A stretch of 64,000 bases of DNA from Chloroflexota bacterium (GTDB lineage Bacteria; Chloroflexota; Anaerolineae; J036; Brachytrichaceae): positions 62,001 to 126,000 of the forward strand of contig JANXLU010000085.1 of NCBI GenBank assembly GCA_025354985.1, read 5' to 3'. Made by a program: the position numbers and the translations under genes. Shown piece after piece: positions 24,469 to 62,658 of this stretch. Under the pieces are notes generated by a model that did not search any database, was not told where the DNA came from, and saw only the letters and a list, made by a program, of their open reading frames with translations. Position 1 is the first letter of the stretch, and each line of letters starts with the position of its first letter.

Positions 24469-27255
24469 CTATTGCTCCTGTAGTCTGGCGACCGCCGCAA
24501 CAACATCGGTGTCTCGCAGGTTAATGAGGCGGGAACCGCGCGCAGCACGGCCGCTTTTTGGAATATCCTTTACATGTGCGCGCAGGACGGTTCCGGCCGC
24601 ACTCATTACCGTTATTTGCTCACTGTCATGCACAACCCGCGCGGCAACCAGGCGACCCGTCACATCCAGTGCGCCTGTCATTGTGCGCATACCACTTCCG
24701 CCACGCCCCTTTGATCCGTATTCCGACAGTTCGGTACACTTGCCGAATCCCTTTTCGGTAACAACGAGCAGGTAACCATTTGGTTCAACCGTTTCCATGC
24801 CGGCGATGTAGTCGCCCTCTTTTTTGAGCTTCATGGCGCGCACTCCGCTTGCTGTTCTACCCATCAAACGTACTAGTGTCTCATCGAACCGTAGTGCCTG
24901 CCCTTGCGCGGTAACGATCAAAACTTCACCGGCGCCGGAAGTAAGGCGAACATAGTTAAGGTCGTCGCCATCCGCGATAGACATGGCCAGGAGACCGCTC
25001 TGGCGAATATTGGAAAACGCACTTAGTGCAACGCGTTTAATTTTCCCACGCGTTGTGCACATTGCTATGGTCGGTCTGGACTCAACCGGGTGGCTCACTT
25101 CTGGACTGGAATCCACTGCGAGCGCCGGCTCGTCCTGATCCGTTACAAGTATGCTGTCGGAATCCGGCAAATCATCCTCGACAGATACCAGACCTTCATC
25201 GGCAGTGTCAATTGGCAGGGTGACGTCTTCAACAGGGTCAGCAGGCGCATCCGCAGTATCGCTGTCGTCCGCATGGGATGCCGCTGCGGCGGCCATGGTT
25301 GCTTTGGGAATGGAGATCGCCGCGGTAACACGCTCACCTTCCATTAGTGAGATGATATTGCTTAGGAAGACACCCTTGGCGTCGCGGTTGGCTTCGGGAA
25401 GCTGATACGCGCGAACTGCATAGACCCGGCCCTTATTCGTGAAGAAAAGGACGGTGTCATGCGTTCGTGCCGAGAACAAATACATGATTTCGTCCTGCTC
25501 CTTGGTCGCCATACCGCTTACGCCGCGACCTCCACGTGCTTGAGCCTTGTATTGTTCCAGTGGCGTTTGTTTGATGTAACCACGCTGTGTGAGGCTGACC
25601 AGAACAACCTTGTCCTGAATTAGTTCCTCTTCGTCAAAGCTCTCGCGTTCGTCAAGAATGATCTTTGTGCGGCGGGCATCCGCGTATTTCTCGCGCAGTC
25701 TCAATATGTCTTCACGGATCAGCGCCAACATTTTTTCGGCATGGGCAAGCAAATCCAGGAGATAGGCAATGGTTTTCATTACCTCGGCATATTCGTCCTC
25801 CAAGCGCTGGCGTTCCAAGGCGGCCAACCTGCGAAGCTGCAGATCCAAAATCGCCTGTGTTTGAACATCACTGAGGCCAAATCGTGTCATTAGTGCAGAT
25901 TTGGCGGCCTCGGCGCTCTCTGCCGTTCGAATGATCCGAATGACCTCATCCAGAAATTGAATGGCGATGCGCAGACCTTCGAGGATGTGCGCGCGCGCAC
26001 GTGCGCGTGCCAGTTCCCATTCGCTTCGCCGGCGTATGACTTCCCGGCGATGGTCGATGAAAATTGTCAGGGCCTTCTTAAGCCCGAGCAGCCGCGGCTG
26101 GCCATCGACCAACGCGAGTGTTTGTACGCCAAACGTGCTTTGCAGCGCGGAATATTTATACAGTCGGTTGAGCACACGATTTGGCTGTGCGCCGCGCCGC
26201 AGTTCAATCACCGCGCGCATGCCTGTGCGATCGCTTTCGTCGCGAATATCTGTGATGCCTTCGATACGCTCGTCGCGTACCAACTCTGCAATGCGCTCGA
26301 TCAACATCGACTTATTGACTTGGTAGGGGAGTTCTGTCAGAACGATTTGGAACCGTTCACCCTTGCTTCGGGGCATTTCCTCAACTTCCGCCACGCCCCG
26401 CATAACTACGCGTCCGCGACCGGTCGCATAAGCAGAATGAATGCCCTCGCGACCGATAATTTGCCCGCCGGTTGGAAAGTCGGGCCCGGGAATTAGTTCC
26501 ATCAGGCGCTCGGGCGAACCCTCGTCAAAACCGGTATCTGGTTTCCACGCATCTATGAGGTAGACGATCCCGTCGCACAGCTCGCCAAGGTTATGGGGCG
26601 GAATATTGGTCGCCATGCCGACCGCAATGCCACTTGCACCATTTAAGAGCAGATTCGGGAGTGCGCTTGGAAGCACGGTTGGCTCCTGGGTCGTGCCGTC
26701 ATAGTTATCCTGCCAGTCGACAGTATCACGTTCAAGGTCCGTAAGTAACTCTTCGGCTACCCGGCTCAGCCGTACTTCGGTGTAGCGCATTGCCGCGGGC
26801 GGGTCGCCGTCAACACTGCCGAAGTTACCTTGACCGTCGACCAGCAGATACCGTTGGGAGAAGTCCTGCGCCATGCGCACCATGGCGTCATAGACACTCT
26901 GGTCACCGTGCGGGTGGTACTTTCCCAATACGTCGCCCACTACACGTGCGCTTTTCCGATAGGGTGCCGATGCGCGCGCACCTGAATCGTGCATGACATA
27001 TAGGATTCTTCGTTGAACAGGCTTTAGACCATCACGCGAGTCAGGTAGTGCGCGTGCAACGATCACGCTCATGGCGTAATCAAGATACGCCGTGCGCATT
27101 TCCTTGTCGATGTCTATTGGGCGAATTAAGCCAAAAGGTGATGCGGTCGCCGGTGGCTGAACTGGTGGCTCATTGTTTCCGCTTTCATTCAATTCGGCGA
27201 CAGGAATTTCCGTGTCGTCGGGCGGGCTGTCGCCGCCAAATTCGTCTAAATCCAT
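24469..27255 (-). CDS. gyrA: DNA gyrase subunit A
   Basis: 928 aa. It breaks and rejoins DNA in the A2B2 gyrase that introduces negative supercoils. The catalytic Tyr lies in [10 protein letters not shown], with the quinolone region [20 protein letters not shown] upstream of it. The residue at E. coli position 83 is Gln rather than Ser. The GyrA box QARGGRG is present, which separates it from ParC. The C-terminal propeller is interrupted by a strongly acidic insert at roughly residues 653-727 (rich in Asp, Ala, Pro, Ser), which is unusual. The N-terminus also has about 45 extra acidic/Pro-rich residues. A TATAAT at 27309-27314 is a likely promoter. Confidence 0.96.
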
Positions 27256-27308
27256 GTGGTTTTCGATGCTCCAAAAATGCGTCGTAATAGCGCATTTCTT
27301 AAGACTAA

Positions 27309-27314
27309 ATTATA
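27309..27314 (-). promoter_or_regulatory. -10 element upstream of gyrA
   Basis: A consensus TATAAT on the minus strand lies about 50 bases before the gyrA start. No good -35 is visible at 16-18 bases. The implied leader of about 47 bases is long compared with the leaderless genes of this window. Confidence 0.45.
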
Positions 27315-60145: not shown

Positions 60146-61264
60146 ATGAACACGCCCGACTTGGAGGTGCCTGAATCCGATCGAACGGCTGATCCCGCTA
60201 CCCTGGCTAATTATCTGAATGACCTGTCGATGCGCGTCTCCACTTTGCAAACACAAAGCGACGAGTTACGCGGCGAGAATGTCATTTTGAGGCGGTCAGG
60301 TATTCACCAAATATATTCTGCACAAATTGATGCGCTGCGTACGGATGTTCGCGATTTGATATCACTTGCAACCCGCCGTGGACTAAGCCCGCACGTGGTT
60401 CGGCTAATTTCGAGCAACGGCATGTGCGCGCAGTTTGAGACGCCGGCATCCTATGAACAGACTTTGCCTCTGGACGGGTTGACCTCCGACGCATTTGCTT
60501 CGCTTCGGCCGGTTCACCTTGCATGTGCGCACGCACTTGATTCGGTCATTGTGGTCACTTCAAAATTCCGATTGCTGCGCGCCACTGGTATGGGGATTCA
60601 AACAGCGGCATCCAGTGATTGGCGCGCCGCCCGTGCTGTTGTTGCGTTGCGCAGGGGCGAACAAGCTGACTGCATCCTAAGTGTTGACGAGGCGCATGCT
60701 CCACGGTACGTGGTCGTGGTTACCCGAATGGGGTGGGTGAGGGCGCTTTCGTGGAGCGCCTTTGAGCAAATCATGCATTCTGGTCAACCGTTTGCGAGCA
60801 AAACGGATGGTGATACACCGGTTCGCATCATTGGGGGTGAAGGCGGTGATGTGTTGGTCGTTTCGCGCGCTGGTAAATGGACTCGGTTTCCTCTTGGTTC
60901 TGTTGAACCGGCCGGGTCACAGGCGATAAATGTGACCCTCGAGGATGATGTGGTCGACGCCGTCCTGGTGGATGATCAACCCGCGATATTTTTTGTCGGG
61001 CCGGATGGTGCCATGCTCGGTGTGAGCCCGACGGCTCTTGCAACGCATAAGCGTCCACTTGCCAAACCGGGCGGTCTGCCGCGCGGGTTTCGCGTAATGG
61101 CTTGTTTAGGTTGTAAACCCGCCGCGACAATTCTGACGCTGGGATACGATCTAACGTTTGACGTGGTTGGCACGAAGCGGCTGCGCGTGGGGGACCGCAT
61201 CTCGGATTCCCAGCCTTTGAACGTGATTTCGCGCAAACTGGCTGCTGTTGCGTTGCTTCAGTAA
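60146..61264 (+). CDS. Free-standing GyrA C-terminal-like beta-propeller protein with N-terminal coiled coil
   Basis: 372 aa from ATG 60146 (MNTPDLEVPESDRT); the frame is open upstream only across the divergent gene. Residues 20-80 are a coiled coil (LANYLNDLSMRVSTLQTQSDELRGENVILRR). From about 110 on, repeated strands of the type VVTxxGxxRxLxxxxF occur: DSVIVVTSKFRLLRATG, YVVVVTRMGWVRALSW, VLVVSRAGKWTRFPLGSVEP, IFFVGPDGAMLGVSPTAL, ILTLGYDLTFDVVGTKRL. This blade pattern is that of the DNA-wrapping propeller of GyrA/ParC. There is no GyrA box and no topoisomerase core. It precedes an Hsp70-like gene by eight bases. DNA binding is inferred. Confidence 0.7.
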   Translation: MNTPDLEVPESDRTADPATLANYLNDLSMRVSTLQTQSDELRGENVILRRSGIHQIYSAQIDALRTDVRDLISLATRRGLSPHVVRLISSNGMCAQFETPASYEQTLPLDGLTSDAFASLRPVHLACAHALDSVIVVTSKFRLLRATGMGIQTAASSDWRAARAVVALRRGEQADCILSVDEAHAPRYVVVVTRMGWVRALSWSAFEQIMHSGQPFASKTDGDTPVRIIGGEGGDVLVVSRAGKWTRFPLGSVEPAGSQAINVTLEDDVVDAVLVDDQPAIFFVGPDGAMLGVSPTALATHKRPLAKPGGLPRGFRVMACLGCKPAATILTLGYDLTFDVVGTKRLRVGDRISDSQPLNVISRKLAAVALLQ

Positions 61265-61272
61265 AGGTTCCT

Positions 61273-62658
61273 ATGAATATTGGTATAGATTTTGGAACGA
61301 CGAACACCGTGGCGGCCGTTGTCGACACCGCCGGACGGGTGCAGATGCTGCCGCTTGACCCGACGGACGGTGGCCGCAATACGTTGCGCACTCTGATTTA
61401 TGTCGAACGAGACGGAACCATGCATATCGGTGCGGAGGCAAGCCGGATTCACCGTGATCAAAATCTTGGTCGGGTGCCGCGGTTTTCAAAACAATGGATT
61501 GGGTTTCTGGATATGGACGTTGCAGAATTTACGGCAAAAGGTTATGAGATCAAGGGAGGATCGACCATCGTCGATGTGTATTCCGATGTCGATGTCGATG
61601 CCCCGGGCAGGCTTTTGCATTCGCTCAAAGGGCCGTTGGCGACCGACTATGCCGGCACCACCCTATTTGGCACGTACTACTCGCTCGAAGAGTTGATCGC
61701 CCAGTTTTTGACGCGCCTACGCACACGCGTAGAGACATTGACCGGCGAACGCGTCGACTCCGCCGTATTTGGTCGCCCGGTAAATTTTGCGGCGGCTAAT
61801 ACGCCGGCCGAAAATGAACGCGCCGAGGCTCGTCTGGCACAGGCCGCCAAGCTTGCCGGATTTGATCGCATTACATTCGAGTTGGAGCCCATTGCAGCCG
61901 GGCTTGCCGCTCTGCATGATCAACCGTCCACCGCAGACGACAAAACGCTGATCTTTGATTTTGGCGGCGGCACGCTAGACGTTGCAATCCTGCGCAGTGG
62001 ACCAGGAATTGAAACCACGGTGCTCGCGACCGGCGGCATCGGGATAGCAGGAGATTATTTTGATCAAGTTCTGTTTAGGAAGGCACTTCGAGTTTGGTTT
62101 GGCGAAGGGATCACATGGGGCGCGCAGCGATTGCCATTTCCCACCAAGTTAATGGATATGCTTGGCGACTGGCAGGAGATACCGTCGTTGTGTAACGAGC
62201 CAACGCTCCAGTTTTTGCGTGAGGCACAACGAGATTGTTCAGCGCCGATTCGCTTGATGGCACTAGAGGACCTGATTGCGCGCGGTCATGCATACGATGT
62301 GTATGCCGTGGCAGAGCGGGCAAAAGTTGCCTTGTCAGATCAACCAATAACCATCGCCACCTACAGGGGCGATGCAATTGACATGTGGCAGCCGGTGTGG
62401 CGTTCGGAATTTGCAACGTGGATCAGCAGGGAGCGTCGCATAGTAAATACCTTGATCGACGACATAGTTAGCCGGGCAGGTCTGGATACCAGACAGATCA
62501 CGCGCGTTGTGCGCACCGGGGGATCATCATCGATTCCCGTATTTGTAAACCTGTTGGTCGAAAAATTTGGTCGCGAGAAGCTTGTCGAGCGCGATCTCTT
62601 TACAGCTGTGGCGGCAGGTCTTGCGTATCGCGCAGCTTCAGAGACATTTGATTCCTGA
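61273..62658 (+). CDS. Hsp70-family ATPase (YegD-like, no substrate-binding domain)
   Basis: 461 aa. The actin-like ATPase motifs are GIDFGTTNTVAAVVD (phosphate 1), LIFDFGGGTLDVAILRSG (phosphate 2) and VVRTGGSSSIPVFVNLL (adenosine). GRPVNFAAANTPAENERAEARLAQAAKLAGF is typical of YegD-like proteins. It is about 150 residues shorter than DnaK and ends after the ATPase domain, so it lacks the peptide-binding domain. It is coupled in an operon with the GyrA-propeller-like protein and converges on a DUF971 gene. Confidence 0.9.
   Translation: MNIGIDFGTTNTVAAVVDTAGRVQMLPLDPTDGGRNTLRTLIYVERDGTMHIGAEASRIHRDQNLGRVPRFSKQWIGFLDMDVAEFTAKGYEIKGGSTIVDVYSDVDVDAPGRLLHSLKGPLATDYAGTTLFGTYYSLEELIAQFLTRLRTRVETLTGERVDSAVFGRPVNFAAANTPAENERAEARLAQAAKLAGFDRITFELEPIAAGLAALHDQPSTADDKTLIFDFGGGTLDVAILRSGPGIETTVLATGGIGIAGDYFDQVLFRKALRVWFGEGITWGAQRLPFPTKLMDMLGDWQEIPSLCNEPTLQFLREAQRDCSAPIRLMALEDLIARGHAYDVYAVAERAKVALSDQPITIATYRGDAIDMWQPVWRSEFATWISRERRIVNTLIDDIVSRAGLDTRQITRVVRTGGSSSIPVFVNLLVEKFGREKLVERDLFTAVAAGLAYRAASETFDS

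Follow-up and report, generated by a model that had tools for sequence, protein, structure and literature searches.

The C-terminal domain (CTD) of GyrA and ParC is a beta-pinwheel (PF03989, DNA_gyraseA_C; structures 1suu, 3l6v and 1zi0). Gyrase requires a short motif of this domain, the GyrA-box, the loss of which abolishes DNA wrapping, and in the GyrA-CTD of Salmonella DNA binding is lost when R667 or R716 is substituted (PMC7210945). In Borrelia burgdorferi, a free GyrA CTD called Gac is read from inside gyrA and serves as a DNA-wrapping nucleoid protein (PMC10127594).

YegD (NCBIfam model PRK11678) is an Hsp70 nucleotide-binding domain (NBD) of about 450 residues without a substrate-binding domain (SBD), and in E. 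coli the yegD gene stands alone between alkA and yegI, with no pinwheel. Hsp70 function is held to depend on the conserved SBD. The GyrA pinwheel, free Gac and YegD are each known separately; nothing relevant to an Hsp70 combined with a beta-pinwheel or gyrase propeller was found in the literature searched, which excluded most subscription papers.

In this study, a window of 64,000 nucleotides from a Chloroflexota bacterium of the class Anaerolineae was analyzed. It contains two co-directional genes, P0001 and P0002, with the following features.

60146 to 61264, + strand: P0001, pinwheel protein gene (372 aa), N-terminal helices followed by a GyrA-CTD-like beta-pinwheel (open reading frame, profile matches, AlphaFold2, VIA-align)
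60194 to 60376, + strand: helical, probable coiled-coil N-terminal region of P0001, residues 17-77 (AlphaFold2 helices; conserved residues in a 9-row alignment)
60389 to 61261, + strand: six-bladed beta-pinwheel of P0001, residues 82-372, lacking the GyrA-box and the blade-3/4 pivot arginines (VIA-align to 1suu; residue survey)
61265 to 61272, no strand: 8-base spacer between the two genes
61273 to 62658, + strand: P0002, YegD-like Hsp70 ATPase domain gene (461 aa) without a substrate-binding domain (profile and fold matches); intact motifs are phosphate-1 (D6-N11), E205, phosphate-2 (D229-D236) and the adenosine motif (414-422)
24469 to 27309, - strand: GyrA of the same genome, a comparison sequence outside the pair, with the GyrA-box QARGGRG

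Compared to GyrA and ParC, P0001 has the same six-bladed fold and detectable sequence homology, but it lacks the topoisomerase core, the GyrA-box and the blade-3/4 pivot arginines, and it is linked to an Hsp70 ATPase. P0001 and Gac are both free-standing GyrA-type pinwheels, with 1suu as the closest solved structure. Unlike Gac, P0001 has a separate gene of its own, begins with helices and is partnered by an Hsp70, and it shows no DNA-wrapping signature. In the pinwheel of the window's own GyrA, blades 2 and 3 are separated by an acidic insert of about 80 residues, across which family members of other genera align with length differences.

Folds of the two proteins

The initial annotation described a free-standing GyrA-type propeller with a coiled coil in place of the topoisomerase core, followed after eight bases by a truncated Hsp70 ATPase, and this description was upheld, with the coiled coil as a probable one. 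P0001 alone matched no Pfam family at cut-off, and no topoisomerase domain was found among the Pfam searches of its 372-residue reading frame. It did match the NCBIfam GyrA models over the CTD (1.6e-10) and the GyrA CTDs of the PDB (1.3e-4), and a profile-profile comparison of its family with GyrA CTDs gave 99.8% and E 5e-29. An AlphaFold2 model based on a 9-row family alignment (mean pLDDT 82.6) has long helices at residues 17-50 and 53-77 and then a high-confidence beta-rich domain. Residues 82-372 of this model align by VIA-align with the Borrelia GyrA CTD 1suu over 272 residues, covering all blades (Z 30.1, rmsd 2.5 A), while the next unrelated fold scores 4.6; each of the best 20 Foldseek matches (E <= 1e-3) is a GyrA or ParC structure. 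Thus, this domain is a six-bladed GyrA-type pinwheel. The chain bears no winged-helix or tower catalytic core, as residues 1-81 form helices only, within which L34, Q35, D39, R42 and L48 are conserved in the 9-row alignment. The pinwheel diverges fast, with 34-37% identity across genera among the nine aligned relatives.

P0002 is a relative of YegD and not YegD itself, since its best NCBIfam model, PRK11678, scores 140.7 bits against an equivalog cut-off of 331 bits. It matches the Pfam HSP70 family (PF00012) with 79.5 bits (cut-off 20.6) and MreB with 28 bits. Its model is of modest confidence (pLDDT 64.9), and its PDB fold matches are Hsp70s with E values down to 4e-22, as are all 50 of the Foldseek matches listed. 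The chain stops at the C-terminus of the NBD (residue 461), with neither the beta-sandwich nor the lid of an SBD. Conservation across the six aligned NBDs extends to phosphate-1 (DFGTTN), E205, phosphate-2 (DFGGGTLD) and the adenosine motif (RTGGSSSIP), and all six keep the catalytic E205, D229 and T234. P0002 therefore looks catalytically competent by homology to E171, D194 and T199 of DnaK, to which we take these residues to correspond. The interdomain linker motif of DnaK was not seen, so that allostery of the SBD type can be invoked only by analogy. Hsp70 NBDs have the actin fold, and only in this sense was the ATPase rightly called actin-like; its nearest folds and profiles are Hsp70s and not MreB or ParM, and nothing in them points to the filament module that had also been suggested.

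Conserved pairing and the one-chain form

Co-occurrence of the two genes, proposed at the outset as a check, was upheld. Relatives of P0001 occur in 9 of the 28 genomes of the window's family, and in all nine an Hsp70 gene lies directly downstream on the same strand. An Hsp70 search of the class detected a close P0002 match (E <= 1e-160) in exactly the same nine family genomes, while the other 19 had neither a P0001 nor a close P0002 relative; two of them (G004 and G005) had only a distant Hsp70 outside the clade described below. In the class as a whole, the genes are adjacent or near each other in 19 genomes of seven families, recurring beyond the window's family in f9, f54, f55, f27 and f45, and in f3 with one gene between them. 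In G280 the two genes are on separate contigs, which counts against reading them as one machine. Second Hsp70 genes were also observed, in tandem in G389 (pinwheel gene, Hsp70, second Hsp70; L062:1454-4185) and on another contig in G029 and G282. A genome-wide scan with P0001 as the sole query gave no match; with the family alignment as query it returned eight Chloroflexi/Anaerolineae metagenome-assembled genomes.

Upstream of the pair, the window has a divergent S58 peptidase, other genomes of its genus a thioesterase, G012 an asparaginase and genus g3 a class II ribonucleotide reductase. Because these neighbors differ, the pair and not the region is the conserved unit. A wider conserved operon was rejected, as neighbors vary between genera except for the ftsZ-nrd context of genus g3, where the two genes immediately follow ftsA-ftsZ-nrdR-class II ribonucleotide reductase (L072, L073 and L074). 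A role in defense was also set aside, since no PADLOC family matched P0001 or the fused protein, and P0002 gave one weak match.

A search of the class with the Hsp70 alignment further revealed proteins of about 790 residues in families f35, f19, f38 and f49, in which both parts are fused in one chain: the N-terminal half is a YegD-like NBD and the C-terminal 330 residues or so are a pinwheel. In one of them (L060), the YegD match covers residues 128-442 and the gyrA match residues 537-752 (5e-10). A profile of 13 fused C-termini matched the GyrA CTD (99.5%, E 1e-22, 309 columns) and the P0001 family (E 1.7e-15). The fused form has no counterpart of the N-terminal helices of P0001, and its order, NBD first and pinwheel second, is the NBD-SBD order of a normal Hsp70. 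Compared to DnaK and other Hsp70s, with which the ATPase motifs are shared, it carries a beta-pinwheel in place of the beta-sandwich and lid and has no canonical linker.

In a quick maximum-likelihood tree of 90 NBDs, 52 Hsp70s fell into one clade (SH-aLRT 98), comprising 28 fused, 20 adjacent (including that of G029, with one gene between, labeled by hand) and 4 labeled alone. Of these four, one (L111) is at a contig end, that of G280 has its pinwheel elsewhere in the genome (L087), and those of G029 and G282 are the second Hsp70 alongside a paired one. The two-gene (support 96) and fused (100) forms are sister branches, and the architecture labels are clustered on the tree, none of 500 shuffles being as low. 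In the pinwheel tree, all Hsp70-linked pinwheels are set apart by a single branch (support 82) from GyrA and the stand-alone pinwheels of group B (see below). Two fused proteins (L124 and L127) lie outside the main NBD clade and possibly represent a second, independent fusion. With one NBD clade and one splitting pinwheel branch on one side, and these two outliers on the other, a single recruitment of the pinwheel is possible but not proved. Outside the class, scoring of a few candidates per genome in 400 genomes of the phylum yielded only ordinary GyrAs and no pinwheel fusion.

YegD-like Hsp70s of about 610 residues (L092, L093, L094, L095, L132-L134 and L137-L144) form a separate clade, and their C-terminal domain, about 160 residues long, is not a pinwheel. 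Since this clade bears a different domain, replacement of the SBD in Hsp70s seems to have happened more than once.

Residues for DNA wrapping

The initial annotation regarded the propeller as DNA-wrapping. For the residue survey, the GyrA-box in blade 1 was defined as Q(R/K)RGG(R/K)G, with R667 in blade 3 and R712 and R716 in blade 4, and the E. coli GyrA numbering was verified against the actual sequence. The box is present in 5/5 GyrA proteins and 9/9 group B pinwheels but in 0/9 of the P0001 family, 0/11 of the other two-gene forms and 0/30 of the fused forms. R667, the blade-3 pivot arginine, is found in 5/5 GyrA and in none of the 50 Hsp70-linked pinwheels. R712 is kept in 5/5 GyrA and 0/20 two-gene forms, the position being basic in 17/30 fused forms, and R716 is missing from all 20 two-gene forms. 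P0001 itself has M210, E254 and a gap at the positions of R667, R712 and R716. By this residue survey, the Hsp70-linked pinwheels have lost the DNA-wrapping signature, and that part of the description is not supported. Net charge was dropped as a test of DNA binding, as it spans -10 to +8 even among GyrA CTDs; a CTD charge near zero, at -4 to +4, does not discriminate from them.

These losses bear directly on the strongest competing explanation, in which the pinwheel has kept the ability to bind or bend DNA, as Borrelia Gac does, and is loaded or remodeled by the Hsp70 ATPase, making an ATP-controlled nucleoid protein. P0001 nearly superposes on the GyrA CTD of Borrelia, the source of the free DNA-wrapping Gac (PMC10127594), and its family keeps a basic residue at position 303 in blade 5 (9/9) and at position 351 in blade 6 (7/9), so that a weak nucleic-acid contact stays conceivable. 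The position of the pair behind the ftsA-ftsZ-nrdR-reductase genes would also suit such a role, but this context is limited to genus g3. The near-zero net charge of the CTD leans the other way, although it does not discriminate from GyrA. More telling is that the box whose loss abolishes wrapping by gyrase (PMC7210945) is absent from 50/50 linked pinwheels, as is R667, and that R712 is absent from 20/20 two-gene forms. We therefore consider an ATP-controlled nucleoid protein unlikely. It is quite doubtful that Hsp70 cycling alters the engagement of the pinwheel with chromosomal DNA or a DNA-bound complex, in an ATP-gated, Hsp70-driven nucleoid or topology factor. Because the wrapping residues are missing, the nucleoid module of the initial annotation is kept as a minority reading only.

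A different set of proteins, group B (L085:3502-4539, L084, L086, L088, L089, L090, L091, L025 and L028), are stand-alone proteins of 340-440 residues in which a short N-terminal coil precedes a GyrA pinwheel. They retain a GyrA-box (Q[RH]R[GA]GxG) and have no Hsp70 beside them in the loci read. They are likely frequent in the class, judging from many open frames of 340-440 residues, and by their sequences are the better candidate for a DNA-wrapping, Gac-like nucleoid protein encoded outside gyrA.

A putative Hsp70 machine with a pinwheel

The reading we favor, with reasonable though far from full confidence, is that the two genes encode one machine, in which an Hsp70-type ATPase has recruited a GyrA-type pinwheel as the target-binding module that replaces the SBD. 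P0001 and P0002 would bind each other as subunits; we infer this physical interaction between NBD and pinwheel from the fusion and the adjacency, which are strong but indirect arguments. The extra N-terminal helices of P0001 would probably hold the pinwheel to the NBD or dimerize the pinwheel protein. Binding and hydrolysis of ATP would then switch the grip of the pinwheel on its target, which is probably a protein, and more likely so than wrapped DNA.

The pinwheel might instead serve the Hsp70 as a co-chaperone, either a client adaptor or a nucleotide-exchange factor, and not form its target-binding end. The helical N-terminus of the two-gene form would fit a separate partner of this kind, and YegD-like NBDs without any partner domain exist and are presumably functional. 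In the fused chain, however, the pinwheel sits at the position of the SBD without that helical N-terminus, and no other target domain remains, which makes a co-chaperone role rather improbable. Passive or chance linkage of a decaying gyrA fragment to an Hsp70 gene, which the fast divergence of the pinwheel might suggest, is highly implausible and already contradicted by the intact reading frames in the genomes read, the invariant motifs, the pairing despite shuffled neighbors and the one-gene form.

Collectively, the Hsp70-pinwheel combination in one Chloroflexota class points to an undescribed kind of Hsp70 machine, one whose target-binding end is new. First, a whole branch of Hsp70s bears a gyrase-derived pinwheel at the place of the SBD, as a partner protein or a fused domain. 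Second, a topoisomerase domain has moved out of the topoisomerases and been stripped of its DNA-wrapping signature. Third, the natural one-chain and two-chain versions would provide a test of how an Hsp70 motor is rewired to a new target, and the pair may offer a direct entry to the YegD-like Hsp70s, the role of which has been little described.
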